From Barnesiella sp. WM24 (GTDB lineage Bacteria > Bacteroidota > Bacteroidia > Bacteroidales > Muribaculaceae), in assembly GCF_004570975.1 (NCBI RefSeq), contig NZ_SPPC01000004.1, forward strand, positions 62,001-126,000: a DNA stretch of 64,000 nt, read 5' to 3'. A program made the translations under genes and the position numbers. Every line of letters begins with the position of its first letter. The first letter of the stretch is position 1. Positions 3,095 through 25,183 of the stretch are shown here, piece by piece. The notes under the pieces were generated by a model, which saw only the letters and a program-made list of their open reading frames with translations, did not search any database and was not told the origin of the DNA.

Positions 3095-3125
3095 TTGCAC
3101 AATCAAAATCTTTGACGTAGCTTTG
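3095..3125 (+). promoter_or_regulatory. Promoter of leader module 1
   Basis: TTG at 3095-3097 and TAGCTTTG at 3118-3125 are separated by exactly 20 bp. The block from TTGCACAATC to the -7 box is nearly identical in the three modules. The predicted transcription start falls at about 3130, the first base of leader element A. Confidence 0.8.
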
Positions 3126-3128
3126 CAG

Positions 3129-3342
3129 TGCGAAAATCATATAAGCGCATGTCGCTTCCGTCGGGCATCGGTCAATTGTCCGGACATAAGTCAGGGCATT
3201 TTTTATGCCCTTTCCATACACAGCCATAGCGGCTGTCATATCCTTTACAATTATTTGTCCTTCGGGGCGATGCTTGTATGGTTTTCGCGAACGGGATATG
3301 ACAGCCGTTTTTCTGTCTGATAACGCGAAAATCATACAAGCA
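3129..3342 (+). promoter_or_regulatory. Leader RNA of module 1 with A/B/C mutually exclusive pairing elements
   Basis: A is TGCGAAAATCATATAAGC (3129-3146), B is GCTTGTATGGTTTTCGCG (3272-3289), C is CGCGAAAATCATACAAGC (3324-3341), and the ATG is at 3343. B pairs with C over 18 positions (one G-U) and with A over 18 positions (three G-U). Between them lie a GGGCAT/ATGCCC hairpin (3194-3210), a perfect 14-bp inverted repeat (3230-3243 with 3294-3307) and a UUCG-capped 6-bp stem (3255-3270) just before B. If C pairs with B, the region before the start codon is closed; if A holds B, it is open. This reads as a translational switch. The signal is unknown. Confidence 0.75.
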
Positions 3343-3573
3343 ATGAAACAGACGATTTCATTAAAGGCACCGGGCAGAGCCTTAAATCTCCCGAAAGTGA
3401 CAGTCAGTGGCGCCACCCTGCGCCGGGTATCAACATTCGCAGCCACAGCCGGAACCGCCGGGGCATGGATATGCGCCATCGCCGACCGGCCCGTCGCCAC
3501 ATGTCTCTGCGCACTGCTCGTGACTGTGTGTGCAGCCGTCAATCACTCAAGCAAGGAAGGAGGCGAGATATGA
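3343..3573 (+). CDS. Module ORF1, small two-helix hydrophobic protein (copy 1)
   Basis: ATG 3343 lies one base after leader element C. The 76-residue protein has a basic N-terminus (MKQTISLKAPGRALNLPK) and two hydrophobic stretches (about residues 30-48 and 51-66). Helical-hairpin membrane insertion is plausible. It ends KEGGEI, where an AGGAGG-like stretch inside the codons may serve the next ORF. The stop overlaps the next ATG (ATGA). Nucleotide identity to the copies at 11675 and 25184 is very high, suggesting recent duplication or gene conversion. I recognise no family. It may be a leader-controlled coupling peptide rather than an effector. Confidence 0.65.
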   Translation: MKQTISLKAPGRALNLPKVTVSGATLRRVSTFAATAGTAGAWICAIADRPVATCLCALLVTVCAAVNHSSKEGGEI

Positions 3574-3869
3574 AACTCACAGCGACTACATATCTTGAGC
3601 GCATAAACGAGATAGAGGACATGGTCAACGAAGGCAAGCTGCCGGCTCAAATGGGAATCCTTGCCGCCTCTCTCACAAACCACCGGCCCGACCCTAATCC
3701 GGAACCCGACAGCGAGAAGCTTTCGTCAGCCGACATTCGCGACCGTCTCGCACTGGTGTGCGACCTCACTCTCAATGAAATCGCGGAGGTCATGACCGCC
3801 CTCGGCTACAGGGTATATGTCGACCCCATCTCCGGAGCTGAGTGGGCTGTCAGGGAAAATGCCGGATAA
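3570..3869 (+). CDS. Module ORF2, conserved 99-aa protein of unknown function (copy 1)
   Basis: ATG 3570 overlaps the ORF1 stop, giving 99 residues beginning MKLTATTYLERI. The protein is helical, with an acidic/proline linker (RPDPNPEPDSEKLSS) between an N-terminal helix pair and a C-terminal helix-turn-helix-like segment (LTLNEIAEVMTALGYRVYVDP). The copy at 11902 is almost identical, and the one at 25866 is a diverged paralogue that keeps the linker and the C-terminal segment. The C-terminal part hints at DNA or RNA binding, but that is inference. A strong terminator follows. Confidence 0.75.
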   Translation: MKLTATTYLERINEIEDMVNEGKLPAQMGILAASLTNHRPDPNPEPDSEKLSSADIRDRLALVCDLTLNEIAEVMTALGYRVYVDPISGAEWAVRENAG

Positions 3870-3880
3870 CTCTTTTCCAG

Positions 3881-3948
3881 GGACACATTTTTTTACATTT
3901 TTTTATATCACAGGACAGCCGCGCGCGATGCGTGGCTGTCTTTTTTTT
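3881..3948 (+). terminator. Intrinsic terminator of module 1
   Basis: An 11-bp stem (3914-3924 with 3930-3940, one G-U), a GCGAT loop and T8 follow an AT-rich GGACACAT-T7-ACATT block. The stem sequence GACAGCC/GGCTGTC also occurs in the 14-bp inverted repeat of the leader. Confidence 0.9.
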
Positions 3949-3993
3949 GCCGTTTCATGCGCGATAATTTAGCGGTAATCTTAACGAAACGCA

Positions 3994-5037
3994 ATGGATT
4001 ACCAGCTTATTATCGACTATATGATTGGGCGTTGGGGCTACTCTAAGCAGTTTGTCCGCAACAATCTCGCGCCATTCAAAGGCAAGCACGTCGATGTCTT
4101 GATCTCTTCACCGGGAGGTGACCTCGACCATGCCCTCGACATCCGCCAGCAGTTCGCCGACCATGGCGACGTGACTGTACACATCACCGGCTTCACCGCA
4201 TCTGCAGCTACAGTGATAGCGATGGGCGCGAAGCGTGTGTGCATGTCAAGATATGCGATGTTCAAGGTACACAAGTGTTCCAATTTCATTGACGTCTGGG
4301 GCAACTACAACGCCGATGAGATGCAGAAGCTTATCGAGGACCTCACCGAAAACAAGAAGGAAAATGACAAAATCGATGTCGTGCTCGCCAATCTCTATGC
4401 CACCCGCTGCAAAAAGAAGGTGTCTGACATCCTCGACATCCTTAAAGCCGACCGATGGCTCACAGCCCAAGAGGCGCTTGACCTCGGCTTTATCGATGAA
4501 ATCAGGGAAGCCGACGCCAATGAGGTGACCTGGACCTCCTGCAGCGCCGACACCGCGCGAAAGCTTAACGCGCTCGGTCTCGGCGTCGAGGGGATCCCTT
4601 CAGCCGCAGTCACCGATGAAGAGAAGGCGTCACTGTGGGAGAAACTGAAGAAGTCGCTTTTCCATAGCGAGGGCAGCAAGGAAAACACAGCCGATAATCA
4701 GCAGGGACAATCCGAAACCCTAACCAACACTACCACTGAGATGAAGACAATCAAGCTCACAGCCGCAATGGCTGCCGTTCTTGCCGTGGAATCCATCGAG
4801 GCTGACGACAAGGGGACTGTCACCCTTTCCGAGGCTCAGGTCAATGACATCGCCTCAAAGCTTGAGGCCTTGACCGCCGATGTCACCGCAAAGGAAAATT
4901 CCATCAAGGAACTTCAAGAAAAAGTGGCTTCCCTGGAGAAGCTTCCCGCTGACAGCACCGATGACGTAAAGGATGACGGCTCGGAAGAAAAGCTTAACGC
5001 ATCCGACATGTACAATTCCATAAAAGACATTCTCTGA
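3994..5037 (+). CDS. ClpP-like prohead protease fused to a scaffold domain
   Basis: Residues 1-170 are a ClpP/S49-type serine protease: ISSPGG at 37-42, nucleophile Ser70 in TGFTASAATVIAMG, His93 in FKVHKC, and LDLGFIDEI near the end of the domain. Residues about 250-347 are acidic and coiled-coil-like (AKENSIKELQEKVASLEK), as expected for capsid scaffold. The protease matures the prohead and degrades the scaffold. The major capsid gene starts three bases after the stop. An in-frame ATG at 4741 (MKTIKLTAAM) at the domain border could give a separate scaffold protein, as in lambda C/Nu3; that is inference. This is the first gene after module 1. Confidence 0.9.
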   Translation: MDYQLIIDYMIGRWGYSKQFVRNNLAPFKGKHVDVLISSPGGDLDHALDIRQQFADHGDVTVHITGFTASAATVIAMGAKRVCMSRYAMFKVHKCSNFIDVWGNYNADEMQKLIEDLTENKKENDKIDVVLANLYATRCKKKVSDILDILKADRWLTAQEALDLGFIDEIREADANEVTWTSCSADTARKLNALGLGVEGIPSAAVTDEEKASLWEKLKKSLFHSEGSKENTADNQQGQSETLTNTTTEMKTIKLTAAMAAVLAVESIEADDKGTVTLSEAQVNDIASKLEALTADVTAKENSIKELQEKVASLEKLPADSTDDVKDDGSEEKLNASDMYNSIKDIL

Positions 5038-5039
5038 TT

Positions 5040-6008
5040 ATGCCGCCTATCAACTGTACCGACCAGGATTTTCTCACCAGTGCGAGAAAATACCGCAAGG
5101 AGCTGCTCCGCCTGCCGGTTCTACGACTCCTTGATGTCCTTAAAAACAACTTTACGCTCCGTGCCGGTATCCGATTCGAGGAGAAGCTTTACTCGGTTGA
5201 CGCCGACATGCAGTTCGGTCCCTACGACCCGAAACGCACCGAGGAACTCGGCGTTGACATCGCGGCCCGCACATTGAAGACTTTCTTCGGATCCGTGCGC
5301 CGCGAGTTCGACCCCAACCAGTTCTATAAGACCGTGCTCGGGTCCTCGATCACCAAGGGAGAGGCCCTGAAAAACGTGGAGGTGGCGCGACTTGTGCTGT
5401 CTATCCTCTCCGGCAAGCTCGGCGACCACATCGCGCGCGAGATGTTCACTGCGGTGCGCAAGGATGACGGCACAACCACCCATGACCTGTTCAACGGCTT
5501 TGACACCATCACCGCCACAGAGATAACCGATGGTAACCTCGCTGTGGAAAAGGGCAACCTTTTTGAGTTTACCGACGCCATCGACTCGACCAATGCGGTG
5601 GACCTTGTCAAGGCTTTCCTCCGCTCCGGCGACGACTTCCTGATGTCGCAGGAGGGTCTCAAGCTTTACATGCCGTATAAGGTATGGTATGACTACATGG
5701 ACGACTACAAGATCACCACCGGAGCCATCTCCTACAACCAGTCTTACCGCCAGATCCATCCCGAGGGCTTTGAGAATGTCACTTTCGTGCCGATGTTCCA
5801 GAAGAAGGGCAGCGAGTTCCTTCAGCTCACCGACAAAAACAACATGCTTATCGGTGTCAACCAGACCGGCGAGGAGGAAAGCATCGTGGTCGAAAAGCAT
5901 GACGTGGTGCTGCTCACTTTCTTCGCCACCATTTTCTTTGGCTGCGACTACGAGTCGATCGACCCCACTCGCCTGCTCGTAGGAAAGCTCAAACAAGTTG
6001 AACCCTAA
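5040..6008 (+). CDS. Major capsid protein (probable HK97 fold)
   Basis: The 322-residue protein follows the protease/scaffold gene directly, where tailed phages place the major capsid gene. It has a helical N-terminus, a long central region with the spine-helix-like VEVARLVLSILSGKLGDHIAREMF, and a beta-rich C-terminus ending VLLTFFATIFFGCDYESIDPTRL. It has no signal peptide. The assignment rests on position, length and sequence pattern; the HK97 fold itself cannot be shown here. Strong, uninterrupted codon use suggests an intact late gene. Confidence 0.85.
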   Translation: MPPINCTDQDFLTSARKYRKELLRLPVLRLLDVLKNNFTLRAGIRFEEKLYSVDADMQFGPYDPKRTEELGVDIAARTLKTFFGSVRREFDPNQFYKTVLGSSITKGEALKNVEVARLVLSILSGKLGDHIAREMFTAVRKDDGTTTHDLFNGFDTITATEITDGNLAVEKGNLFEFTDAIDSTNAVDLVKAFLRSGDDFLMSQEGLKLYMPYKVWYDYMDDYKITTGAISYNQSYRQIHPEGFENVTFVPMFQKKGSEFLQLTDKNNMLIGVNQTGEEESIVVEKHDVVLLTFFATIFFGCDYESIDPTRLLVGKLKQVEP

Positions 6009-6022
6009 AACACGGACCCGCA

Positions 6023-6634
6023 ATGAAAAAGACTGACTGCTCCGCAAAGAGCCTGTATGAGTCGCTTCGATTCTGCCCCGGCGAGAACACCCTGCCAGGT
6101 CTTCGTCCCGAGGCTTACGCGATACCGAAGTCTCAGATACTGAAGTTCCCGAAGCGCAAGACCCCCGCCGATGCCGGTGCAAGCCTCGGCTCGCTCGTGA
6201 CCTATGACGGTGATTTCACCCTCGCGGCCGACGCCAAGTTCTTTGCCGTCGACATTGTGACCACTGCCTCCAATCTGAAGGCGGAGTCACAGGGCGAATA
6301 TCCCTCAAGCTCATTCCTCGTCTCCGTCACCCTCAAGTATGCGGGTGTCGATGAAGAGGCGACCGGATTCTGCATGATGGCTAACACTGACGACCTCGTG
6401 TATGTCGTGCGTCAGAAAAACGGCAAGTACCGCGTCATCGGCAACGATTTCGAGCGCACCACCACCAAGCCCTCCCAGGACTCCGGCATGGCTGTGACCG
6501 ACGCCTCCGGAACCAACCTCGAGGTGTCGGTGACCGACAAGTCGCCCGCCCCGTTCTACACCGGAAAGCTCGTGACCGAAGACGGTGTCATCGACTGCTC
6601 GACAGGGCTTATCGAGGAAGCCGCCGGTGCCTGA
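6023..6634 (+). CDS. Phage structural protein after capsid, possibly tail tube or decoration
   Basis: The 203-residue protein starts 14 bp after the capsid gene. Its core is predicted beta-rich (LVTYDGDFTLAADAKFFAV, then SSFLVSVTLKYAG), with a Ser/Thr-rich C-terminal stretch. This pattern fits a tail-tube or capsid-decoration protein. The position after capsid fits decoration; the beta sandwich fits either. No diagnostic motif is visible. Alternative explanations include a head-tail connector. Confidence 0.5.
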   Translation: MKKTDCSAKSLYESLRFCPGENTLPGLRPEAYAIPKSQILKFPKRKTPADAGASLGSLVTYDGDFTLAADAKFFAVDIVTTASNLKAESQGEYPSSSFLVSVTLKYAGVDEEATGFCMMANTDDLVYVVRQKNGKYRVIGNDFERTTTKPSQDSGMAVTDASGTNLEVSVTDKSPAPFYTGKLVTEDGVIDCSTGLIEEAAGA

Positions 6635-6718
6635 CCCTTATTTGACTGATAGTATTAATGTGAATCCGCGCGGCTGGCTGCATCTGACCATGTATGCCGC
6701 CGCGCTTTCTTCTTAAAA

Positions 6719-7501
6719 ATGAATTTTATGGCTAATATTGACCAAAAACTCACAGCGGCTATACAGGAATGGCTCAACACGCCGCAGGAGTCGCGCGACA
6801 TGGCTGCAGGCGCGGAGATGCTGCTGAAGCTTAACCGCAACATGGCGATGTACAACTCGGCAATGAGACGCCCGGAGAAATATGGTGACAAGGTCGCTTA
6901 CGAGCTCAGGAAGTATCTCAACATACGTCTGCGCGGTATGGCTGTCAGCGACGTGGTGGACCTTGAGCGCCGCGTGATGCCACGCGTGGCTGAGACCCTT
7001 GCGGAACCTGCCCCGGACACTGTGCTGCCTGTCGACGCGGAACACCCCGAGGCTAAGGTGGCGCGCGGCAGACGCGCCGACCATGACTCGCTGCCCGCGG
7101 AGATACAGGCTCTTTACACCGACAACCTTGACCGTCGCCGTCGCGTCGACCTCCTGTTTAACGAAATCAAGGCTATGAGCCACATGCAGCCGTGTGACCG
7201 CTTTGAGAAGCTGCACATGCTCGACGAGACCGAGAGCGAATACCGCAAGGCGTGGGCGGCCTACGACTCTTATGTTGCCGGGGAACCTGTGCCGGTTCCG
7301 GACGCGGAGGTGAAAAAGCGCCTTTCGGCGGCACGTAAGACAATATCAAAATATCGCTCCGTTTATGAGAAGAGCGCCGGTGACCGCCGTGAAGCTGCAG
7401 TAGCCAAGGTGCGTGACGCGGCGATGACGGTGCTGCAGCTCGGCGGCGACTTCTCTGACGAGACCAGGTTTGCACTCAAGGAGATGGGTGTCTCGCTGTG
7501 A
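6719..7501 (+). CDS. Helical phage protein of unknown function (260 aa)
   Basis: ATG 6719, or ATG 6728 which opens MANID, starts a highly charged, almost entirely helical protein with repeated Arg/Glu patterns (DRRRRVDLLFNEIKAM, KKRLSAARKTISKYRSVYEKSAGDRREAAVAKV). There are no membrane segments. The stop overlaps the start of the PLD-like gene (TGATG), so the two are probably coupled. Coiled-coil character and location in the head-gene block suggest an assembly or packaging accessory factor, but no family is recognised. Confidence 0.6.
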   Translation: MNFMANIDQKLTAAIQEWLNTPQESRDMAAGAEMLLKLNRNMAMYNSAMRRPEKYGDKVAYELRKYLNIRLRGMAVSDVVDLERRVMPRVAETLAEPAPDTVLPVDAEHPEAKVARGRRADHDSLPAEIQALYTDNLDRRRRVDLLFNEIKAMSHMQPCDRFEKLHMLDETESEYRKAWAAYDSYVAGEPVPVPDAEVKKRLSAARKTISKYRSVYEKSAGDRREAAVAKVRDAAMTVLQLGGDFSDETRFALKEMGVSL

Positions 7502-8007
7502 TGGAGCGCGCCGGTGCCGTGGCGGCGTTGCTCAGACCGCTGTCTTCTGCCGCCTGTCAGACTTATTTCTGCGACTCCCTGCAGCTTGCCGACATCATCG
7601 AGTGGACTGTCATGCAGTGCGGGGTCTCAACGCTGTCTGTCTCCTCTTTCTCTGCCGGGGAGGAGTTCCTGCGGCGGCTGTGGCGGCTCCGTGACTCGGG
7701 GATGGTCGATGGCTGCACGCTCATCCTCGACGCAAGGGCGATGAAAAAGACCGGGCTGCTCTCTGCCTTTCTGGATGAAGTGACCGACCGCGTCTATGTC
7801 GCGCGCAATCACTCCAAGGTGGTGCTTGTCGAGGGCTCGCTGATGTCAGCGGCGATCGTGACCTCGCAGAACCTTACCAGAGGCAACCGCACGGAGGCGG
7901 GTATGGTCATTTCTGACCATGACGCCGTAGACGGGATCAGACGCGGCATGACCGAATTAATCAATAAATCAACTCTTATCAATGGAACTAACTCAGGAAC
8001 AGATTGA
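7501..8007 (+). CDS. Phospholipase D-like (HKD) protein in the terminase block
   Basis: ATG 7501 overlaps the preceding stop; GTG 7498 is an alternative start. The 168-residue protein has one PLD-superfamily motif: His104 and Lys106 in NHSKVVLVEG, followed by Asn124 and Glu132 in SQNLTRGNRTEAG. One motif suggests it works as a dimer, like small bacterial nucleases of the superfamily. Upstream strands (VSTLSVSSFSAGEE, CTLILDARAM) fit the PLD fold. PLD-like proteins include nucleases as well as lipases, and a nuclease or DNA-end role near packaging genes is plausible but inferred. It overlaps the next gene by 26 bp. Confidence 0.75.
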   Translation: MERAGAVAALLRPLSSAACQTYFCDSLQLADIIEWTVMQCGVSTLSVSSFSAGEEFLRRLWRLRDSGMVDGCTLILDARAMKKTGLLSAFLDEVTDRVYVARNHSKVVLVEGSLMSAAIVTSQNLTRGNRTEAGMVISDHDAVDGIRRGMTELINKSTLINGTNSGTD

Positions 8008-8257: not shown

Positions 8258-8260
8258 GTC

Positions 8261-10502: not shown

Positions 10503-10560
10503 CCCCGGAATTTTTATTACTGCCTTTTTTTGATTTGTTTTATTGGTTTATTAAGGTAAG

Positions 10561-10590
10561 GGGCATCTGCTGTGAAGCATGTGCCCTTTT
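10561..10590 (+). terminator. Probable terminator after terminase
   Basis: GGGCA pairs with TGCCC (10561-10565 with 10582-10586), with partial inner pairing, followed by T4 and G-T5. It ends the unit begun at module 1. Confidence 0.5.
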
Positions 10591-10636
10591 GTTTTTCGGC
10601 AAAATCTTGAATACTCCTTTTTCAGGGCGACTTTTT

Positions 10637-10674: not shown

Positions 10675-10696
10675 CGGTGTAATCAAAACTAACGCC

Positions 10697-11104
10697 TTAA
10701 TAAGACAGGCGGGTCGAGCCTATTATCCTTGACATGTCGGCAAGGGCATGATTGAATGTCTCAAGCTCTGCTTCGGTAAATCTTGCCTGCTTCCCGTTGA
10801 CATCATTGCCGTTGATGCGCTGCGACAACCATGCGCGCGACTTATTGAAATAAGTGCGAGCTATATAACTGAGGTTTACCATCTCACATATAGAGCCGAG
10901 CTGCAGCTTCAATGTCTCCTCGTGCAGGTCGCTTATCTCGCCGCTTAGCCGCTCGATATTACTTGAGATAAACCTGTCAATGGCAGCGCTGTCTGCTTCA
11001 GTAGTTGCTTGTGCTTTTATGTCAGCCATCATCCTGTAGGCTTCCGGAGTTATGCCTTTGTCGATTAATGTCTGTAGTTCGTCAAGTCTCTGCATTATAT
11101 CCAT
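10697..11104 (-). CDS. DUF5053 protein (copy A)
   Basis: The 135-residue protein has a helical N-terminal half and the DUF5053 core in the C-terminal half: LSYIARTYFNKSRAWLSQRI, then NGKQARFTEAELETFNHAL. DUF5053 is common in Bacteroidales phages and has no established function; the core looks like a helix-turn-helix. Two paralogues are in this window (22893 plus, 24182 minus). It follows a 56-aa gene on the minus strand, and the pair is divergent from leader module 2, with promoters about 40 bp apart. Confidence 0.85.
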   Translation of the reverse strand: MDIMQRLDELQTLIDKGITPEAYRMMADIKAQATTEADSAAIDRFISSNIERLSGEISDLHEETLKLQLGSICEMVNLSYIARTYFNKSRAWLSQRINGNDVNGKQARFTEAELETFNHALADMSRIIGSTRLSY

Positions 11105-11414: not shown

Positions 11415-11445
11415 TTGCACAATCAAAATCTTTGATGTAGATTTG
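11415..11445 (+). promoter_or_regulatory. Promoter of leader module 2
   Basis: TTG (11415-11417) and TAGATTTG (11438-11445) are 20 bp apart, with a spacer nearly identical to that of module 1. The predicted start lies at element A (11449). Confidence 0.8.
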
Positions 11446-11448
11446 CAG

Positions 11449-11674
11449 TGCTAAAACATCAACGGTGTTAGTCACCGCCGAGAGCATCGGTTAACTGCTC
11501 GACATAAGTCAGGGCTTTTTTTTATGCCCCTTTACATACGCAGCCTTATCGGCTGTCATATCCACAACTTTATCACGCTCCGGCGTGACCACTGTTGATG
11601 TTTTAGCGGACGGGATATGACAGCCGTTTTTCTGTCTAATAACATCTAATTAATCACGCTAAAACATCAACAGT
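11449..11674 (+). promoter_or_regulatory. Leader RNA of module 2 with its own A/B/C set
   Basis: A is TGCTAAAACATCAACGGT (11449-11466), B is ACTGTTGATGTTTTAGCG (11591-11608), C is CGCTAAAACATCAACAGT (11657-11674), and the ATG follows immediately at 11675. B:C is a perfect 18-bp complement; A:B has two G-U pairs. The 14-bp inverted repeat is unchanged (11550-11563 with 11613-11626). The stem before B has fully different bases from module 1 but pairs just as well (TCACGC TCCG GCGTGA, 11573-11588). Covariation at two independent helices is strong evidence for RNA structure. Confidence 0.78.
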
Positions 11675-11905
11675 ATGAAACAGACGATTTCATTAAAGGC
11701 ACCGGGCAGAGCCTTCAATCTCCCGAAAGTGACAGTCAGTGGCGCCACCCTGCGCCGGGTATCAACATTCGCAGCCGTAGCCGGAACTGCCGGGGCATGG
11801 ATATGCGCCATCGCCGACCGACCCGTCGCCACATGTCTCTGCGCACTGCTCGTGACAGTGTGTGCAGCAGTAAATCACTCAAGCAAGGAAGGAGGCGAGA
11901 TATGA
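11675..11905 (+). CDS. Module ORF1, small two-helix hydrophobic protein (copy 2)
   Basis: This copy is 76 residues and nearly identical to copy 1, with an Ala/Val change in the first hydrophobic stretch (STFAAVAGTAGAWICAIA). ATG 11675 directly abuts leader element C, which fixes the start. It ends in an ATGA overlap with ORF2. The function is unknown; the hydrophobic pattern suggests membrane association or simply a coupling peptide. Confidence 0.65.
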   Translation: MKQTISLKAPGRAFNLPKVTVSGATLRRVSTFAAVAGTAGAWICAIADRPVATCLCALLVTVCAAVNHSSKEGGEI

Positions 11906-17815: not shown

Positions 17816-17859
17816 TGTCTTTTTTCTGATGACTGTCTTTACCGATATTCGCTACTGTT

Positions 17860-20800
17860 ATGGACAAGAATACTTTATACGCAAAGGCACGCAAAATCCG
17901 TGACGCGAGCCTGCTGAGAGAGAACACGGCAAGCCGTGTCGGCTCTATGTTTGTGGAAATCATTGACAACATCCCGGAGGTCGACCCCGCTGATGTCGCA
18001 GGGAAAGCCGACAAGGCGACGACGCTTGAGGGCTACGGCATCACTGACGCATACACGATGGAGGAGACGGAGATGCTGCTGAGCCTGGAAAGTCGCAGGT
18101 TAAGCGACGGACTCTCACCGGGCCTGGTGATGGAGTTTCACGGCTTCATGACCAGGGCGGAGCTGATGGCTGCCACTGCCGGCAAGCTTGACAGCTCCTT
18201 GAAATGGGACTTCTCGAAGGATTCAAGGATGAGAGTCTACTGGGTGGCTGACGCGCTTGACTACAGCGCGTCCTATCAGGAGGGCGGACAGTGGGCGCTC
18301 CACGACACGGTGAAAGACCTGTGGAACTACGGCAGTATCGGCACATACTGGCATTGCCGCTCCTCAAACCCGTGGACTTACATGCACGGCCCCGACTTCT
18401 ACCGTCTTGAGAATCTTACCGAGGGGGCTGTCGGTGCCAACCACCGCCATGAGCTAAGATACATCGGCTCGCTTACATCAGGCTCGGGGGTGACGGCGTT
18501 TGCAGGGGTGGTGGAATATGACCACCTGTATTATCCCGACACGGAGACTGTCATCTCCGACCCTGACCGTATAATCTTTGTAAAGGACAATCCCGACCCT
18601 GACTATGACCCGATGGAGTTTAACGGCGGGTTCCTGGCTGAGAAAGACGGGGCGTGGTACACGCTCTGGGAAGACGCGGGACACGTCGGTGAGGCACAAA
18701 ACGGGGTGTACCGCCCGGTGCAGGGACGGATTTATCTCGACACGTCGACATGCCGCCTGTATGTCGGTGACAGCGAATCAGGGCTGACGGCGGCTGACGC
18801 TTTCGCCCATGACGGGGTCGTGGAGCTGAAGCCCGTGGTCGCGGCAATCCGCTCGAGGGTGATAAACCACGAGCCGTCGCTGCTGCCGCCTGTGGCGGGA
18901 ATCATGGACACTGTGCCTGACATTACGGAGGGTGAACCCCCGGTCTACGCCGCTATGTCGCCGCCGGAGGTGTGGGTCGTGCGCCCGACTGTGGATGTCA
19001 ACGGCTATCAGACTGTCGGAACCAAGCCGCCCATGAACAAGATGCTCGCGGTCAAGTATCGCGGCATCAAGATAGGCGACACGGATGAAAAATGGGTCAC
19101 CGGCGAGGAATGGCTGCGCGAGCGTGGCTACCTTAATGCCGAACGCTATATCATCAACGACTCGGTGTATGTCGTGAGGGCGACAACTGTGTCGGGCGAC
19201 TCCGGGCTTGGCACGCTCGCAAAGACCCGCTATACATGGACGCTGCTCGGCAGCCTCTATCTTCCCGACGGGGGCGCCGTGGCGGCCCACAGGCTCGCGC
19301 CCGATGACTTCGAGACGGCTTTGCGCACTGCGCTCGCCTATGCCAAGGCTAACGGGCTGTCAACGGTGGACTGCACATGGTTCACCGGCGAGTGGCGCTG
19401 CAAGGAGCGGTTTATTGTGGATTTTCCGGTCAACATTCGTCTCGGAAACGTGACCGTGACGATGGAGGACACTCTGTTTTTCGACATCCGGAGCAACAAC
19501 GTGAAGATACAGGGCGTGAACCGACAGACCGACAGGACAGTCAACGACAGCAACGCCACTGTGCTGGTGCTTGAGGGCGTCTCAAACCTTAGCACGGAGG
19601 GCTACCATATATATTCGCGTGGCAACAAGAACTGCCAGTACCGGGACATGGTGCTGAGAGGGACGCAGACCTCGTCGGGGCGGCAGTGTAACAACGCGTC
19701 ATACCCTATCGACGGGACGGGCGGAATTTATATCGAGAAGGGGAATCCCGGCACTACAAGCTCCGGAAACACCATTAACGCCACCATCCTCGACAACCTG
19801 CTTATCGACGGGACCAAGGCTCATGCCATATATCTTGACACGCCTATCCTGTCGATGATACGCGACGTGCGTATCTCCTATGCCGGAGGGCACGGGGTGT
19901 TTATCTCCGGAGGCACATCGACCACGCTTGAATCGGTCTATGTGGCTTCGGCTCGTTATGCCGGGTTCTGCCTGCAGGGCATCACCTATTGCACCGTGTT
20001 CAACTCCGTGGCTGAGAACTGCGGCTGCGGATGGTGGCTGCGCTCGGTATTCAACACCTCGCTTTTCTCGCCGGGCGTCGAGACCACCTACAACTATGGT
20101 CTGAACCCCTGGGCTGGCGCCTACCGCGTGTCGAAACGCTACGGGCTCGCCGTGGACACCACCGCTGCCGACGGCACACCGGTTAGGATTACCGACGTGC
20201 CCGACGACAGCTGGGCGATGGGGTCGCGCAGCATCCACGCCCGCTCGCTCTTCTGCGGCTACGCATTTGTCATCACAGGAGGACGTAACGTGGACATATA
20301 CTCGCCCTACTGTATCTCGATCGCAAACGAGCTGAGCCCGGCAAGCCCGCTGCTTGACGCGGTGAAAGACCAGCTCTGCCTGATGATGATACTCGGCAAC
20401 AGCCGCGCGGTGAAGGTGTCAAACGCAATGTTTCAGGAGCGCAACACCTCGCCGATACCGGCGGCTATACGCCACGAGATAGAAATCGCCGCGGAGGCTT
20501 CGGGCATGGACCTGTCGTATAACCCCGACAGCTCGATGATGCCGTCATGGACGGCGATGAGCCCGGTGACCGACGACGAGACCAAGACCGCGCCGGTGCT
20601 GTGCCTGTCAAAGTCGGCGCTGGTGCATTGCGGCAACCGCTTTTACACCAACGTCCAGTTTCTGGGTAACATCGAGATTGGCGGGGCGGCGCAGATTGCC
20701 GGGCAGATTGTGACCGACACGGGCATCATCACGAAGGGTCCGATAATCAACTATGACGAGGCGGCGCTGAATCTTCAGTATGTCATAAGCCCCGACAGCT

Positions 20801-21417
20801 CCGAGATTGACTACTCCTACAACGGCACGGAGTTCCGCGTGGTGCCGAAAGCCACGTTTGCGCTCGACAACGTGACAGCCGACACAAGATTCTCCCTGCT
20901 TGTCGACGGCGTGGAGCTCGCTTCCACCACCGGCGGAAACGAGATGTCGTTCAAGCTGTCGAGCCCGGGCGCTCACAGTATCGTGCTGCATGCCGCTTAC
21001 GGTGACAAGACAGCCGATACCGAGCCGCGCATTGTGACCGTCAGGGAACCGGCAAACCTGCCCATCGAGTTCCGGTCCACCACGATGCTGAAAGCGGAGG
21101 ACAAGGCGGTCACGCTGCATATCACATACCGGGGCACATACCAGGTGACCGAGGCGGGTATCGCGTATTCAAGCAACAACCAGTCGCCCACGACTTCGCA
21201 GAACTCGCAGAAGCTCGCGTCGCTCGACCTCATTCAGGATTCGACCGACGGGCTGCTGCATAAATATACTATCGACCTGCCGAGAACCAACGCTTCGACA
21301 GTGCGGTACGTGCGCGGCTATGTGAGGGCGAAGGAGGATGCCGACGCGACATCCGCCTATGCCTACTACGACACCGCCGTCTACAAGGTGGTGGGTGACA
21401 CGATAGAGAAGTTATAA
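17860..21417 (+). CDS. Tail spike/receptor-binding protein with parallel beta-helix
   Basis: 1,185 residues. The N-terminus (1-70, MDKNTLYAKARKIRDAS...) contains a virion-anchor-like segment with KATTLEGYGITDAYT, a fragment seen in fibre proteins. Residues about 530-740 carry short strand repeats typical of right-handed beta-helices (NVKIQGVN, IYSRGNKNCQYRDMVLRG, TINATILDNLLIDG, IRDVRISYAGGHGVFISGG). A glycine- and cysteine-rich NCGCGWWLRS follows. The C-terminus (about 1,000-1,185) has Ig/FN3-like strands. Such spikes bind and may degrade host capsule polysaccharide. No catalytic residues can be assigned. It lies before the lysis cassette, far from the distal tail genes. Confidence 0.8.
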   Translation: MDKNTLYAKARKIRDASLLRENTASRVGSMFVEIIDNIPEVDPADVAGKADKATTLEGYGITDAYTMEETEMLLSLESRRLSDGLSPGLVMEFHGFMTRAELMAATAGKLDSSLKWDFSKDSRMRVYWVADALDYSASYQEGGQWALHDTVKDLWNYGSIGTYWHCRSSNPWTYMHGPDFYRLENLTEGAVGANHRHELRYIGSLTSGSGVTAFAGVVEYDHLYYPDTETVISDPDRIIFVKDNPDPDYDPMEFNGGFLAEKDGAWYTLWEDAGHVGEAQNGVYRPVQGRIYLDTSTCRLYVGDSESGLTAADAFAHDGVVELKPVVAAIRSRVINHEPSLLPPVAGIMDTVPDITEGEPPVYAAMSPPEVWVVRPTVDVNGYQTVGTKPPMNKMLAVKYRGIKIGDTDEKWVTGEEWLRERGYLNAERYIINDSVYVVRATTVSGDSGLGTLAKTRYTWTLLGSLYLPDGGAVAAHRLAPDDFETALRTALAYAKANGLSTVDCTWFTGEWRCKERFIVDFPVNIRLGNVTVTMEDTLFFDIRSNNVKIQGVNRQTDRTVNDSNATVLVLEGVSNLSTEGYHIYSRGNKNCQYRDMVLRGTQTSSGRQCNNASYPIDGTGGIYIEKGNPGTTSSGNTINATILDNLLIDGTKAHAIYLDTPILSMIRDVRISYAGGHGVFISGGTSTTLESVYVASARYAGFCLQGITYCTVFNSVAENCGCGWWLRSVFNTSLFSPGVETTYNYGLNPWAGAYRVSKRYGLAVDTTAADGTPVRITDVPDDSWAMGSRSIHARSLFCGYAFVITGGRNVDIYSPYCISIANELSPASPLLDAVKDQLCLMMILGNSRAVKVSNAMFQERNTSPIPAAIRHEIEIAAEASGMDLSYNPDSSMMPSWTAMSPVTDDETKTAPVLCLSKSALVHCGNRFYTNVQFLGNIEIGGAAQIAGQIVTDTGIITKGPIINYDEAALNLQYVISPDSSEIDYSYNGTEFRVVPKATFALDNVTADTRFSLLVDGVELASTTGGNEMSFKLSSPGAHSIVLHAAYGDKTADTEPRIVTVREPANLPIEFRSTTMLKAEDKAVTLHITYRGTYQVTEAGIAYSSNNQSPTTSQNSQKLASLDLIQDSTDGLLHKYTIDLPRTNASTVRYVRGYVRAKEDADATSAYAYYDTAVYKVVGDTIEKL

Positions 21418-21435
21418 CCTTAGACTATACGGTTT

Positions 21436-21726
21436 ATGAGACATTTAAAACAGGAATTTGACAAACTCACCTTTAAGGAGGTGCTTGTCTACACTATGGC
21501 TATAGTGTCAATGACGGCGGGGCTTGTGATGCTGTTTCTCTGCGTCTACATCCCGCCCGAGGGGCTGATTCATGAGTCGATTCTGACGGCGTTTGGCATC
21601 ATATGCGTGTTCTCGGCTTCGCTGCTGGGAATTTCGATGCACTACGCCAGCGAGCTTGATCGGTTTAAAGAACAGGTGGGGCGGCAGATTGCCGAGCTCG
21701 CCACAGGGAAAGGAGGTGAACAATGA
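21436..21726 (+). CDS. Holin-like protein (96 aa)
   Basis: Two hydrophobic segments (residues about 16-37, VLVYTMAIVSMTAGLVMLFL, and 50-68, LTAFGIICVFSASLLGISMH) flank a short loop. The C-terminus is charged (ELDRFKEQVGRQIAELATG). This two-helix topology, the small size and the ATGA overlap with an endolysin gene identify the holin slot of a lysis cassette. Holins puncture the inner membrane at the programmed lysis time. The call rests on topology and context. Confidence 0.8.
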   Translation: MRHLKQEFDKLTFKEVLVYTMAIVSMTAGLVMLFLCVYIPPEGLIHESILTAFGIICVFSASLLGISMHYASELDRFKEQVGRQIAELATGKGGEQ

Positions 21727-22118
21727 AGTATTTCTCTTTTCAGGAATTTGAGCGGAGCGAGACAGCCTACCGCCACGGCATCGACAACACGGCGCCGGAG
21801 AGCGCACGCAGGAACATCGCGGCGCTTGTCGACATGGTGCTTGACCCTCTGCGCGAGGCGTGGGGCAAGCCGATAACCGTGACATCGGGCTACCGGTGTC
21901 CGGAACTGAACAGGAGAGTCGGCGGAGTGTCCGGGTCGATGCACCTTACAGGATGTGCCGCCGACATATCCACCGGAAACGCGGTCGACAACCGCCGCCT
22001 GTATCAGCTCGTGCAAGACTTGAACCTGCCATACTTTGAGCTCATCGGCAAGAAGTATGATTTCAGATGGCTGCACATAAGCTACAACCCCGAAAGGGCT
22101 AAACGTAATCCGTCATGA
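21723..22118 (+). CDS. Endolysin, peptidase M15 (D-Ala-D-Ala carboxypeptidase-like)
   Basis: The 131-residue protein has the M15 zinc-peptidase signature: SGYRCPELN (55-63), SMHLTGCAADI with His74 and Asp81 as metal ligands, and WLHISY with His118 as third ligand. The family cleaves peptidoglycan stem peptides. There is no signal peptide, so export needs the holin just upstream. It is linked by ATGA to the holin before it and to the spanin after it. Length and motifs are complete. Confidence 0.93.
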   Translation: MKYFSFQEFERSETAYRHGIDNTAPESARRNIAALVDMVLDPLREAWGKPITVTSGYRCPELNRRVGGVSGSMHLTGCAADISTGNAVDNRRLYQLVQDLNLPYFELIGKKYDFRWLHISYNPERAKRNPS

Positions 22119-22507
22119 CGCGGTGCATATTGTTTGCCGCGCTGCTGGCGGCTGTGATATGCGGATGCACCCGCACGGTGTATGAGCCGGTGGAGACTGT
22201 CAGGACGGAGAAAGACGTGGTGACGCGATGGCTCACCGACACGGTGATACAGAATGACACCCGTTTTATCTTTGTCAAGGGAGACACGGTGATTGACTGG
22301 CGTGACCGATGGCGCGAGCGCACCAAAGAGGTGCATGACACTGTGTACGTCGAGCGCACTGACTCGGTGCCGGTACCCTATCCGGTGGAGCGTGAGCTGT
22401 CGCGATGGGAGCGCGTCAAGGTGGATTATGGCGGCTTCGCCCTGGGGCTTGTAGGCTCGGTGCTTGCCGTAGCAGTGATTTGGCTCGCGAAAAAATTTCG
22501 CAGATAA
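22115..22507 (+). CDS. Probable unimolecular spanin (outer-membrane disruption)
   Basis: The 130-residue protein begins with a lipoprotein signal (MTRCILFAALLAAVICGC, lipidated Cys18) and ends with a transmembrane helix (about 107-124, FALGLVGSVLAVAVIWLA) and a basic tail. The region between is periplasmic, with repeated Val/Thr strands. An outer-membrane lipid anchor plus an inner-membrane helix in one chain defines a u-spanin, which fuses the two membranes at the last lysis step. It is coupled to the endolysin gene by ATGA. The topology is visible; function is inferred from known u-spanins. Confidence 0.75.
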   Translation: MTRCILFAALLAAVICGCTRTVYEPVETVRTEKDVVTRWLTDTVIQNDTRFIFVKGDTVIDWRDRWRERTKEVHDTVYVERTDSVPVPYPVERELSRWERVKVDYGGFALGLVGSVLAVAVIWLAKKFRR

Positions 22508-22549
22508 AAATTTTACGCCTATCTTTGCTGTCAAGGAGAGAAGGTTGCC

Positions 22550-22578
22550 CCGGTTGTCGCATGTGAGTGCGTCGCCGG
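22550..22578 (+). terminator. Terminator containing a 29-nt repeat also at 23240-23268
   Basis: The 29 bases starting CCGGTTGTCGCATGTGAGTG are identical at both sites. Here a 7-bp GCCCCGG/CCGGGGC stem closes the hairpin and T5 follows. It ends the lysis cassette. A TATCTTTG box at 22520-22527 lies just upstream. Confidence 0.7.
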
Positions 22579-22627
22579 GGCTTTTTCTTTACTGCCATCA
22601 TTTTTTTGAAAAATAATCGCTTGTTTA

Positions 22628-22659
22628 TTTGCTCACTACGAAAATTCGTAGTATATTTG
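22628..22659 (+). promoter_or_regulatory. Promoter with palindromic operator candidate
   Basis: TTTG (22628-22631) and TATATTTG (22652-22659) are 20 bp apart. The spacer ends in the inverted repeat CTACGAA AA TTCGTAG (22636-22651). Confidence 0.75.
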
Positions 22660-22686
22660 TATTGTCAAATTAAACAAAGCAATACA

Positions 22687-22842
22687 ATGAAACGACGAAG
22701 AAAAGAAAGAATTAGACTCTCTCAAAAAGAAGAAGAGCTGATAAGAGCAATCAGAAATTACCGACTCAGTTATCCCAACGGTTATCCGCAACTGCTCTAC
22801 TTCATTCAGCAACTGGTCGACGAACTGACCGACCTGCCCTAA
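22687..22842 (+). CDS. Small basic regulatory-like protein (51 aa)
   Basis: ATG 22687 gives a 51-residue protein with a basic N-terminus (MKRRRKERIRLSQKEEELIR) and a helical C-terminus (LLYFIQQLVDELTDL). The frame is open further upstream but crosses the promoter, so this start is preferred. It is followed by a hairpin (CCCTCCC/GGGAGGG around 22855) and a DUF5053-like gene. The basic helix could bind nucleic acid. No family is recognised. Confidence 0.6.
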   Translation: MKRRRKERIRLSQKEEELIRAIRNYRLSYPNGYPQLLYFIQQLVDELTDLP

Positions 22843-22892
22843 AAAATCACCAACCCTCCCTTGAAAAAGGGAGGGTACAAAACAATAAAAGT

Positions 22893-23147
22893 ATGGAAAC
22901 AATCATGCAAAACAAGACACTCGTCACAGATATGAGACAGAAGATGTCAGATATATTAATCGACATATCTTGGCGTGAAATCGCCCGTAACTATTTCGGA
23001 AAGTCAAGCTCATGGCTATACCATAAGCTTGATGGAATCGATGGCAACGGCGGTGTCGGGGGCTTTTCTCCTGAGGAGGCGCAACAGCTCAAAGGGGCGT
23101 TGTGCGACCTGTCAGCCCGTATCCGCAAGGCTGCCGACTCAATCTGA
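22893..23147 (+). CDS. Short DUF5053-like protein (copy B)
   Basis: The 84-residue protein lacks the N-terminal half of the DUF5053 proteins at 10697 and 24182 but has the same core: ISWREIARNYFGKSSSWLYHKL, then FSPEEAQQLKGALCDLSARI. This is the only plus-strand copy. Position in an autoregulation-like cassette (22628-23147) and the HTH-like core suggest a transcriptional regulator; that is inference. ATG 22893 or the in-frame ATG at 22905 could be the start. Confidence 0.75.
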   Translation: METIMQNKTLVTDMRQKMSDILIDISWREIARNYFGKSSSWLYHKLDGIDGNGGVGGFSPEEAQQLKGALCDLSARIRKAADSI

Positions 23148-23201
23148 TATGCCTTGTTTAATTTGACACTGTCCGCATCAAGGCGGCGGACACCGCTCAC
23201 C

Positions 23202-23230
23202 CTCGCCATCTCGGCGGGGGTGACTTTTTA
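23202..23230 (+). terminator. Terminator after the DUF5053-like gene
   Basis: An 8-bp stem (CCCTCGCC with GGCGGGGG, one G-U) is followed by TGAC-T5. A second hairpin (TGTCCGC/GCGGACA) lies just upstream, and the 29-nt repeat terminator follows at 23240-23268 with T6. Confidence 0.7.
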
Positions 23231-23325
23231 TGTGTGATTCCGGTTGTCGCATGTGAGTGCGTCGCCGGTTTTTTATGGGCTGTGACATAAAAAATATTTT
23301 CCTATCATGTTTTTTGTGTAAATTA

Positions 23326-23357
23326 TTTTGCTAAATAAAAATTTAGCATTATCTTTG
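23326..23357 (+). promoter_or_regulatory. Promoter of HicAB module 2 with palindromic operator candidate
   Basis: TTTG (23326-23329) and TATCTTTG (23350-23357) are 20 bp apart. The spacer holds the perfect inverted repeat GCTAAAT AAAA ATTTAGC (23329-23346), well placed for repression by the HicB HTH. Confidence 0.82.
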
Positions 23358-23381
23358 TATCGTAAATCAAACGAGAGAACA

Positions 23382-23570
23382 ATGAAATATAAAGAATTGC
23401 ACAAATTACTCCGCAAGGCAGGATGCCGGGACACGGGTCGACAACGAGGCGGACATCCGCTGTGGTACTCCCCGATTACCGGAAACTACTTCAAGACAAG
23501 CAACCACGGCTCGGAAGAAGTCAAGTCAGGCACTTTGAAATCAATTCTCCGCGATGCCGGGATTAAGTAA
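23382..23570 (+). CDS. hicA: HicA toxin, mRNA interferase (module 2)
   Basis: ATG 23382 gives 62 residues: MKYKELHKLLRKAGCR, then the catalytic GGHPLWYSP (His25), ITGNYF, and the C-terminal helix LKSILRDAGI. It is a diverged paralogue of the module at 2286. It lies 25 bp after its -7 box. A hairpin (GGGAGGGG/CCCCTCCC, 23573-23593) separates it from hicB, as in module 1. Confidence 0.92.
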   Translation: MKYKELHKLLRKAGCRDTGRQRGGHPLWYSPITGNYFKTSNHGSEEVKSGTLKSILRDAGIK

Positions 23571-23655
23571 ACGGGAGGGGGTTTAGCCCCTCCCTTCCTG
23601 ACAGGAAGAGACCAAATTTGTTTAACAATTCAGAGTATAGAGTATATTATATAGT

Positions 23656-24063
23656 ATGAAAACAGTGAGAGTATTTATTGAAAGAGGCAAGGATGGCACT
23701 TATGGTGCATACATGCCCGATGACAATCATCTTGGCTGGGGCGTCCACGGCGACGGTGCTACTGCCAGTGACGCTATTGCAGAATTTAAAACCGAGTATG
23801 AGGACATGAAGTCTTTCTTCAAGGAAGAGGGAAAGCCTTTTGAAGAAGTGGAGTTTGCTTTCTCCTACGACCTTCCTTCATTCCTTGTCTATTACGCGGA
23901 TTTAATCTCGTACAAAGGTCTTGCAAAACTCACGGGAATTTCTGCAGCACAGCTCTCGCAGTACATCTCCGGCTACCGTACACCGTCGGCCAGGACAACG
24001 GAAAAAATTCAGAATGCACTTCACGCATTCGGTAAAGAGCTAAGCCAGTTGCAGCTTGTTTGA
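23656..24063 (+). CDS. hicB: HicB antitoxin with C-terminal HTH (module 2)
   Basis: The 135-residue protein has the HicB fold (VRVFIERGKDGTYGAYMPDD, then GDGATASDAIAEFKTEYEDM) and an Xre-like HTH (residues about 88-133, KGLAKLTGISAAQLSQYISG). It probably represses the promoter at 23326 and neutralises HicA. It differs from module 1 enough in the fold and HTH to bind a different toxin and operator. Confidence 0.92.
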   Translation: MKTVRVFIERGKDGTYGAYMPDDNHLGWGVHGDGATASDAIAEFKTEYEDMKSFFKEEGKPFEEVEFAFSYDLPSFLVYYADLISYKGLAKLTGISAAQLSQYISGYRTPSARTTEKIQNALHAFGKELSQLQLV

Positions 24064-24093
24064 TTTACACTTTTACATTGTTCGCACTGGTTA

Positions 24094-24127
24094 CACCCTC
24101 GCCATCACGGTGAGGGTGACTTTTTTT
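24094..24127 (+). terminator. Terminator of HicAB module 2
   Basis: A stem of about 10 bp (24094-24103 with 24109-24118, loop ATCAC) is followed by AC-T7. It is closely related in sequence to the terminator at 23202. Confidence 0.85.
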
Positions 24128-24132
24128 ATAAA

Positions 24133-24169
24133 GAGAACGCCCGGCATCGGGGTGATGTCGGGCGTTCTC
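24133..24169 (-). terminator. Terminator of the minus-strand DUF5053 unit
   Basis: An 11-bp perfect stem (24133-24143 with 24159-24169) lies 12 bp past the stop of the DUF5053 gene, followed on the minus strand by TTTAT. Confidence 0.6.
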
Positions 24170-24181
24170 GGCGTCTTAAAC

Positions 24182-24583
24182 TTAATGAGTTAAATTAATT
24201 GAGGTTTGGTGGATGATATTGCTTATCTCCTGAAGGGAGTCGGATAATATCCTGAGTTCTGAGTCGGTGAACGCCACCGGCTTGCCGTTGACCTTAGCCT
24301 GATTGATGCGCTGATAGAGCCATGTACGATCTTTGTCGAAATATTGTTTGGCAATCTGGGCGAGGTTAAGATAGGGTGCTGCATCGCCGAGTATAGACTT
24401 CACATCCACGTCGTGACGCTTACGTCTACGCAGCCCGTCTCGCAGCCGGGTCATCGCTTCCTTCTTCTCTTCCGGCGTATCTGCGAGGGCAAATGCCTTG
24501 TTCATGAGCGTGTCGGTCTCCTCTGCCGAGAGTGTCGGCTGGGCGATAATCTTATCGATGGCGTCTTGCAGTTCCTGTTTCAT
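24182..24583 (-). CDS. DUF5053 protein (copy C)
   Basis: The 133-residue protein has a charged helical N-terminal half (EKKEAMTRLRDGLRRRKRHDVD) and the DUF5053 core YLNLAQIAKQYFDKDRTWLYQR, then FTDSELRILSDSLQEIS. It is on the minus strand, preceded by a 57-aa gene and divergent from leader module 3. This is the same arrangement as copy A with module 2. The repeated pairing suggests the DUF5053 unit and the leader modules are functionally connected. Confidence 0.85.
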   Translation of the reverse strand: MKQELQDAIDKIIAQPTLSAEETDTLMNKAFALADTPEEKKEAMTRLRDGLRRRKRHDVDVKSILGDAAPYLNLAQIAKQYFDKDRTWLYQRINQAKVNGKPVAFTDSELRILSDSLQEISNIIHQTSINLTH

Positions 24584-24668
24584 ATCTTGTCGTTTTATAT
24601 CATCAAAAAAAATGTCTTAATCGTTAGAGTACTTTAAGGAGTCCCGTGTTACCGGGACTCCAAAGCTG

Positions 24669-24842
24669 TCACTTCTCGGTTAACAGTAACGCGGCATACT
24701 CTCTGATGATTTCCTCCACGGTTTCCAAGAAGTCCGACTCGGTCATCCACCCCTCTTCAAGGAGTCTTTGCTCGTTTCGGAGATAGAACCTCAATTGGTT
24801 GAGTAATTCTATCCGGTCATTTAAACCTGTTAAAGTACTCAT
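24669..24842 (-). CDS. Small helical protein upstream of DUF5053 (57 aa)
   Basis: The minus-strand start is ATG 24840-24842 and the stop is TGA 24669-24671. The acidic helical protein (MSTLTGLNDRIELLNQLRFY...EEGWMTESDFLETVEEIIREYAALL) occupies the same place as the 56-aa gene at 11150-11320 but shares little sequence. It starts 16 bp after a good -7 box. Equivalent position in two cassettes makes it likely to be real. Confidence 0.6.
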   Translation of the reverse strand: MSTLTGLNDRIELLNQLRFYLRNEQRLLEEGWMTESDFLETVEEIIREYAALLLTEK

Positions 24843-24858
24843 GTCGTTTAAGACAATG

Positions 24859-24889
24859 CAAATTTAATACTCTTTTGATTATTATGCAA
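24859..24889 (-). promoter_or_regulatory. Divergent promoter for the second DUF5053 unit
   Basis: On the minus strand TTG (24887-24889) and TAAATTTG (24859-24866) are 20 bp apart. The spacer carries TAATA...TATTA half-sites, comparable to the palindrome at the module 2 divergent promoter. Confidence 0.75.
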
Positions 24890-24938
24890 GTTTTTCGACA
24901 ATAAAAATTCGCTTTTGATTATTTTTTTTGTGCTGCTC

Positions 24939-24969
24939 TTGCACAATCCGATTCTTTGACGTAGATTTG
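24939..24969 (+). promoter_or_regulatory. Promoter of leader module 3
   Basis: TTG (24939-24941) and TAGATTTG (24962-24969) are 20 bp apart. Element A begins four bases later, as in the other modules. Confidence 0.8.
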
Positions 24970-24972
24970 CAG

Positions 24973-25183
24973 TGCTAAACTTAAACGAGCGTATATCGCT
25001 TCCGTCGGGCATCGGTCAATTGTCCGGACATAAGTCAGGGCTTTTTTTATGCCCTATACATACACAGCCATTACGGCTGTCATATCCAATAACATCTTTG
25101 TCCTTCGGGGCGACGCTTGTTTGAGTTTAGCGACGGGATATGACAGCCGTTTTTCTGTCTACAACGCTAAACTCAAACAAGCA
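24973..25183 (+). promoter_or_regulatory. Leader RNA of module 3 with its own A/B/C set
   Basis: A is TGCTAAACTTAAACGAGC (24973-24990), B is GCTTGTTTGAGTTTAGCG (25115-25132), C is CGCTAAACTCAAACAAGC (25165-25182), and the ATG is at 25184. B:C is a perfect 18-bp complement; A:B keeps all 18 pairs with three G-U. The 14-bp inverted repeat (25074-25087 with 25136-25149) and the UUCG stem (25098-25113) match module 1. The distance A to ATG is 211 nt. Confidence 0.78.

Follow-up and report, generated by a model that had tools for sequence, protein, structure and literature searches.

Three copies of a leader RNA with two mutually exclusive pairings lie in a prophage of Barnesiella sp. WM24, within the window analyzed here (64,000 nucleotides, contig NZ_SPPC01000004.1, positions 62,001 to 126,000), to which all coordinates below refer. 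In each leader, one strand (B) is complementary both to a strand A near the predicted 5' end of the RNA and to a strand C at the start codon of the first open reading frame (ORF1), and B is enclosed by a terminator-like stem, P1. Comparison of related leaders shows covarying complementarity in A:B and in B:C, the stem P1, a choice of P1 between two partners, and the placement of C at the ATG. With about even confidence, we interpret the leader as a three-strand RNA switch in which A:B would be the on state, and an A that is occupied, most likely by the B of an RNA of the same type, would be the off state. The leaders had been noticed in an earlier sequence-only reading; that observation is confirmed and is much wider than reported, and its interpretation is partly supported. 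As far as Rfam 15 and the open-licence literature show, the RNA family is undescribed.

The controlled units in the window are small operons of two or three ORFs, each with its own predicted promoter and a closing terminator-like hairpin. All three copies follow the same order: predicted promoter, leader, ORF1 (75-76 amino acids, aa), ORF2 (99-100 aa) and hairpin. The promoter motif, TTGCACAA followed by TAnnTTTG, has identical spacing in the three copies and is a predicted Bacteroidetes-type promoter. A script confirmed the leaders at the positions first noted, with 18 of 18 positions able to pair in A:B and in B:C in each copy, and with zero, zero and one base between the end of C and the ORF1 ATG in copies 1, 2 and 3. 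Copy 3 has an extra ORF between ORF1 and ORF2. The tail of the closing hairpin is T8 in copy 1 and is broken by a C in copies 2 and 3. A Pfam search of ORF1, ORF2 and the extra ORF returned no family. The features are as follows.

3095..3125, + strand: copy 1 predicted promoter (TTGCACAA / TAnnTTTG), motif identified by reading
3129..3147, + strand: copy 1 strand A, near the predicted RNA 5' end
3163..3181, + strand: copy 1 conserved hairpin H1
3194..3210, + strand: copy 1 conserved hairpin H2 (GGGC, T-run, GCCC)
3230..3243, + strand: copy 1 P1 5' arm
3257..3268, + strand: copy 1 hairpin H3
3271..3289, + strand: copy 1 strand B
3294..3312, + strand: copy 1 P1 3' arm (3294-3307) and U-tract, terminator-like
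3313..3317, + strand: copy 1 CTGTC, alternative partner (hairpin P2) of GACAG in the P1 3' arm, from covariation
3324..3342, + strand: copy 1 strand C, ending at the ORF1 ATG
3343..3573, + strand: copy 1 ORF1, 76 aa, middle hydrophobic by eye, no Pfam family
3570..3869, + strand: copy 1 ORF2, 99 aa, no Pfam family
3913..3948, + strand: copy 1 terminator-like hairpin with T8, closing the unit
11415..11445, + strand: copy 2 predicted promoter
11449..11467, + strand: copy 2 strand A
11550..11563, + strand: copy 2 P1 5' arm
11590..11608, + strand: copy 2 strand B
11613..11636, + strand: copy 2 P1 3' arm, U-tract and CTGTC
11657..11674, + strand: copy 2 strand C
11675..11905, + strand: copy 2 ORF1, 76 aa
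11902..12201, + strand: copy 2 ORF2, 99 aa
12246..12281, + strand: copy 2 matching hairpin, tail interrupted by C
24939..24969, + strand: copy 3 predicted promoter
24973..24992, + strand: copy 3 strand A
25074..25087, + strand: copy 3 P1 5' arm
25113..25132, + strand: copy 3 strand B
25136..25159, + strand: copy 3 P1 3' arm, U-tract and CTGTC
25165..25182, + strand: copy 3 strand C
25184..25411, + strand: copy 3 ORF1, 75 aa
25408..25833, + strand: copy 3 extra ORF, 141 aa, between ORF1 and ORF2, no Pfam family
25866..26168, + strand: copy 3 ORF2, 100 aa
26207..26243, + strand: copy 3 terminator-like hairpin, closing the unit

A DNA search of 61 genomes, the own one included, turned up related leaders in four genomes besides it (G007, G015, G024 and G029) and a fifth match (in G044) that is without A, B and C. 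Searching with the P1 pattern gave 15 viral and 15 genome loci, partly identical places. From 53 candidate sites, 32 unique leaders including those of the window were kept as a first set; the other 21 either lie opposite a leader on the complementary strand or are unrelated matches to the pattern. Twenty-eight of the 32 served to build a covariance model that covers the middle part and excludes A and C, the remaining four being outliers in length or sequence. With the own genome counted in each draw, the model matched 50 of 297 genomes of the own family, 9 of 393 of the order and 3 of 395 of the phylum; the two phylum matches other than the own genome are weak, and one (L126) is without a convincing A, B or C. 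Single genomes hold up to five matches (G188), with four each in G024 and G076. The model gave 114 rows, of which 84 were taken on (of the other 30, six duplicated a place and 24 were weak echoes on the opposite strand), and after removal of one repeat and 16 leaders already in the first set, a second set of 67 remained, which brings both sets to 99 leaders.

Named contigs with leaders are labelled Muribaculaceae, Porphyromonadaceae, Barnesiella, Bacteroides and Dysgonomonas, with one leader (L033) in Dysgonomonas sp. HGC4, and viral contigs carry leaders too. Two contigs, both metagenome assemblies, are labelled Clostridium and Staphylococcus; we judge these labels doubtful, as the Staphylococcus contig appears to be that of G208, which is placed in the own family. 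The window unit had no match in annotated phages, and the leader of a relative had two partial matches in unannotated phage records and none in plasmids.

In the first set, A:B pairs in 490 of 576 cells (85%) and B:C in 534 of 576 (93%). For these counts, A was positioned from the promoter motif, and best fit decided C and the end of B; a one-base bulge in the A of some leaders lowers the ungapped A:B count. With shuffled B, about 60% of cells were paired in either helix, with a maximum of 66-67%. Fourteen of 18 columns have changed on both sides in A:B and likewise in B:C. The covariation and the exclusive pairing claimed from the three window copies are borne out, and homologous leaders elsewhere keep the complementarity rather than varying independently in the three strands. 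There are 53 G-U pairs in A:B and 15 in B:C, which argues for pairing as RNA rather than as DNA. In the window copies, the B:C helices have one, none and none, as originally counted; the A:B counts of three, two and three depend on the register, being four, two and three over helices of 19-20 bp and three, one and two over the 18-base register.

In the 32 leaders, mean duplex energies of own strands were -26.6 (A:B) and -27.4 (B:C) kcal/mol against -10.4 and -10.3 kcal/mol for strands mixed between leaders, and only 7 of 992 mixed A:B pairs were as strong as the weakest own A:B. In the second set, B found its best partner among all 67 in its own A-side segment in 58 leaders, a segment that holds 22 model bases and so also a strand of the helix extending A:B, and in its own C-side segment in 49; six of the nine A-side misses and 13 of the 18 C-side misses scored below 60 bits. 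A chance origin of the pairing was rejected by the duplex energies, the shuffles and this out-of-sample test. The A placed from the predicted -7 box was also the best-pairing A in 26 of the 32 leaders. C abuts the ATG (-9 to +3 bases) in 84 of the 89 leaders, among the 99, that have an ORF of at least 30 aa or one open to the stretch end, with ATGs sought from -9 to +37. By eye, and uncounted, there also seems to be a local hairpin between the 3' end of A and the bases that follow it.

P1 is a 14-bp stem around H3 and B, followed by a U-tract. At least five T occur in the eight bases after its 3' arm in 68 of the 71 leaders, out of 99, with a readable arm, a count that in part follows from the search pattern and the model. 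The GRCAG of this arm has a downstream CTGYC in 61 of the same 71, against 8% for a random 40-base stretch, and the CTGYC sits outside both search pattern and model. The two covary at the variable position (A-T 23, G-C 34, G-T 4, A-C 0; p = 5e-13), and P1's own arms covary less cleanly there (24 A-T, 24 G-C, 12 G-T, 3 A-C). At the level of sequence comparison, this shows a second exclusive choice, between P1 and a small hairpin, P2. A further helix, formed by the bases after A with the H3 region, extends A:B (own -18.1 against mixed -13.6 kcal/mol); the own combination beats the median mix in 32 of 32 leaders and is the best of all in only four, which in our view reflects the conserved core of the helix. 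H1 and H2 (3163-3210 and counterparts) are conserved, alongside P1 itself, take little part in the pairing choice, and may serve as a receptor for a protein or ligand. The terminator-like P1, the second choice at its 3' arm and the extending helix were absent from the sequence-only reading, which mentioned a 14-bp repeat without using it; the repeat turns out to be the P1 stem that encloses B.

When the RNA was folded up to the U-tract, A:B formed without P1 in 32 of 32 leaders, and blocking A gave P1 in all 32, which makes A:B look like an antiterminator that leaves the start codon exposed as well. Blocking windows starting at base 0, 5 or 10 gave P1 in 32 of 32 leaders, those starting at 15 to 35 in 20, 8, 5, 8 and 2 of 32, and those at 40 in none; from base 45 on, P1 formed in 1 of 233 folds. 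The second set, in which 60 of the 67 leaders were folded (seven had no usable A), had A:B in 54 of 60 and P1 in 58 of 60 after blocking A and in 5 of 60 after a control block. Full-length folds of the 32 leaders had B:C in 18 and A:B in 14, and with A blocked, B:C in 31 and P1 in one. Within the energy model, A is the main predicted input deciding termination and access to the start codon.

The earlier proposal that a weaker A:B forms first and a stronger B:C later does not hold as a rule. The energy of A:B minus that of B:C was +3.3, -1.2 and -0.3 kcal/mol in copies 1, 2 and 3, so that A:B is the weaker duplex in one of the three, and it is weaker in 21 of the 32 leaders (median 0.55 kcal/mol, p = 0.052). 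When whole leaders of the window were folded with either A:B or B:C imposed, the two energies lay within 1.2 kcal/mol of each other. Across the 32 leaders, the means were -68.6 (A:B) and -71.2 (B:C) kcal/mol, with gaps of up to about 16 in leaders whose A has a bulge that the forced register ignores.

We propose that B has two alternative partners, A close to the predicted 5' end and C at the start codon of ORF1. Pairing with A would keep P1 from forming and leave the start codon free, so that the gene is on. Occupation of A, most likely by B of an RNA of the same type, would turn the gene off, with P1 presumably terminating transcription and B:C probably blocking translation. A terminated leader, which from A to the P1 U-tract would be a short RNA of roughly 180 bases, or another copy of the transcript would supply B in trans in a copy-specific manner, in the way that CI RNA acts in phage P4. 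Our best guess for the occupant of A is same-type B in trans. Given P1, the P2 choice and the extending helix, an early decision on transcription may be taken as well.

In cofolds, the cognate B 20-mer flipped the leader to P1 in 31 of 32 cases and a non-cognate one in 203 of 992. The matrix of the window copies is diagonal save for one of six non-cognate entries (B of copy 1 on leader 2), and cross energies were -4.9 to -16.3 kcal/mol against -26.4 to -30.0 kcal/mol for own pairs. The idea that different 18-mers keep the copies from cross-pairing is partly borne out in the window, by the weak cross energies, with an exception in the one leader that is flipped. None of the 32 co-resident pairs share A/B/C (least divergence 0.21); shared strands are uncommon in general, with a divergence below 0.2 in 10 of 3454 pairs. 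No clear other target of B was found in the host genome when sites with at most three mismatches to C outside the leaders were compared with reversed-pattern controls (3, 14 and 2 sites against 1, 28 and 3 for copies 1, 2 and 3); all had three mismatches except one two-mismatch site for copy 2.

Several points weigh against this model. The proposal is built on sequence comparison and folding, from which termination, the translation block and the trans supply are inferred steps. Pseudoknots are barred by the folding program, and the exclusion of P1 by A:B and by B:C is partly due to that rule; coexistence is possible, and by our estimate the loop lengths of a pseudoknot of B:C with P1 are feasible. 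A may not be the sole input, since blocking windows beside it (15 to 35) also give P1. A source of free B is needed because in the terminated RNA, B would stay bound to the A of the same molecule. In silico, 20% of leaders are flipped by non-cognate B, and the strongest cross helix reaches the weakest own helix in 11 of the 32 co-resident pairs, in some via a misassigned A. Further, A/B/C of co-resident copies diverge by a mean of 0.40 (17 pairs) against 0.44 for the free spacer (11 of these pairs), being more divergent than the spacer in only 4 of the 11, and co-resident pairs are not more divergent than other pairs (84 of the 99 leaders compared). Third codon positions of ORF1 differ by only 0.08 between co-resident copies, a contrast that suggested diversifying selection on A/B/C; the comparisons with free spacer and with other pairs left this unsupported, and the contrast is no proof of selection for specificity, as the ORFs may have been homogenized. 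ORF divergences of 0.00 that came from gapped alignments of unrelated ORFs were not used.

That A/B/C diverge no faster than free spacer would suit a leader that is bistable in cis only, in which the same choice among A:B, P1 and B:C is set through H1/H2 by a protein, a ligand, temperature or the pace of transcription, with no RNA in trans. We regard this as possible, though less probable than the switch driven in trans. It would give a role to H1 and H2, which are conserved and hardly involved in the pairing choice, and the narrow gap of at most 1.2 kcal/mol between the A:B and B:C states in the window means that a small input could tip them. Against it, the diverse genes downstream offer no hint of a ligand, and the leader, with its conserved H1 and H2, matched no aptamer family in Rfam.

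Membership in a known Rfam family was rejected by a scan of the window at the gathering cutoff and of leader 1 up to E = 5 (Rfam 15); the seven matches of leader 1 at E <= 5 (six microRNAs and one small RNA) lie far below the family cutoffs and look like chance. No description of this leader element was found in searches of the open-licence literature aimed at it, which is in line with the initial impression that no element of this form had been described.

Transcription attenuators have two exclusive folds, one of which ends in a U-tract stem. The leader resembles them in its exclusive antiterminator and U-tract terminator upstream of a gene, as seen in silico in folds without pseudoknots. 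It differs in having a third strand, C, that extends the choice to the start codon, and in strands that vary widely while their pairing is kept.

Closest in logic are the immunity region of satellite phage P4 and IsrK of Gifsy-1. In P4, the CI RNA brings about termination through pairing with seqA and seqC, which flank it (PMC4825925). The P4 region and our leaders are both phage-borne, and in both a strand is complementary to sequences upstream and downstream of it within one leader; the premature termination that follows pairing in P4 is here predicted by cofolding only. Here, in contrast, B lies inside the U-tract stem, C sits right at the start codon, and up to five matches occur per genome. 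The shared arrangement, together with strand sequences that differ between phages, invites the explanation that the leader serves superinfection immunity, with the resident leader RNA silencing genes of the same type in an incoming phage, in the manner of CI RNA. We consider this improbable, as three types occur in one phage and the genes of the window are small ORFs without a Pfam family, none a recognized replication gene, in units that end in a terminator-like hairpin, whereas the P4 region governs replication genes.

The IsrK - orf45 - anrP leader of Gifsy-1 is laid out alike, with a terminator between a small RNA and a readthrough ORF, and IsrK is a terminated small RNA acting on its own readthrough mRNA, as described in PMC4825925. 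Of this arrangement, our leaders have the terminator-like P1 ahead of the ORF. An IsrK-like activation, in which the terminated leader would open the readthrough mRNA in trans instead of closing it, seems very unlikely to us, since occupation of A is predicted to favor P1 and B:C and so to close the gene; IsrK activates, the readthrough mRNA being inactive until the small RNA binds, and B in trans is predicted here to repress. The c4 antisense RNA of P1/P7, listed as a phage antisense RNA in a table of PMC2864571, also differs from the present leader, since its family (Rfam RF01695) had no match in the window or in leader 1. Overall, the leader is predicted to work like a phage antisense or attenuator leader and belongs to no family tested here.

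Finally, A and C are near-direct repeats and B an inverted one, which is true on DNA too, yet a DNA element for protein binding or recombination with incidental RNA pairing is scarcely credible given 53 G-U pairs in A:B, the placement between predicted promoter and ATG, and the covarying hairpins, all of which fit RNA.

If the switch does act in trans, its off state might propagate itself: a captured A would lead to termination at P1, and the RNA's own B in the P1 loop would then capture the A of the next transcript, much like a hybridization chain reaction with a separate code per gene copy. With A blocked, the mean probability that B is unpaired in the terminated fold is 0.48 (range 0.35-0.69). 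We regard this extension as improbable; if true, gut prophages would have a copy-specific memory made of RNA alone, together with same-type immunity.

The element that hosts the units is a prophage, and the units are set between blocks of structural genes. Genes identified in it include the following.

3994-5037: head maturation protease
21723-22118: endolysin
from 26638: tape measure protein
32778-33929: integrase, adjoining tRNA-Ser

Upstream of leaders 2 and 3 are two divergent DUF5053 genes (10697-11104 and 24182-24583, minus strand). Upstream of leader 1 lies a HicA-type toxin gene (2286-2477), followed by an ORF (2608-3009) of no clear family that would be its antitoxin by position only. 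Past the tRNA-Ser end of the prophage, the Rfam scan identified a cobalamin riboswitch (36309-36492, minus strand). About 11 kb to the left of the window, a decayed leader remnant (G000:C35:50590-50640, locus L005) has H1- and H2-like sequence and lacks all of A, B, C and P1.

The first genes behind the leaders vary and recur (L006, L021, L032, L086, L090, L043, L094 and L007), and the leader seems to move between genes. Recurring ones include a family with a motif like GNTFEIHLEGGTINIS and small hydrophobic proteins, and the first gene behind the L007 leader presumably encodes a Rha-like protein. In L095, L086, L102 and L101, two or three leader matches occur within about 0.3-1.2 kb (one in L101 has only 30 bits).

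A three-strand leader of this kind would link a single choice of strand to two checkpoints, termination and start-codon access. Its variable yet complementary strands would form a natural set of mostly specific RNA switches. In our view, RNA-level self-recognition between gene copies and between phages thereby becomes testable in Bacteroidales, and the strands may provide parts for synthetic regulation.

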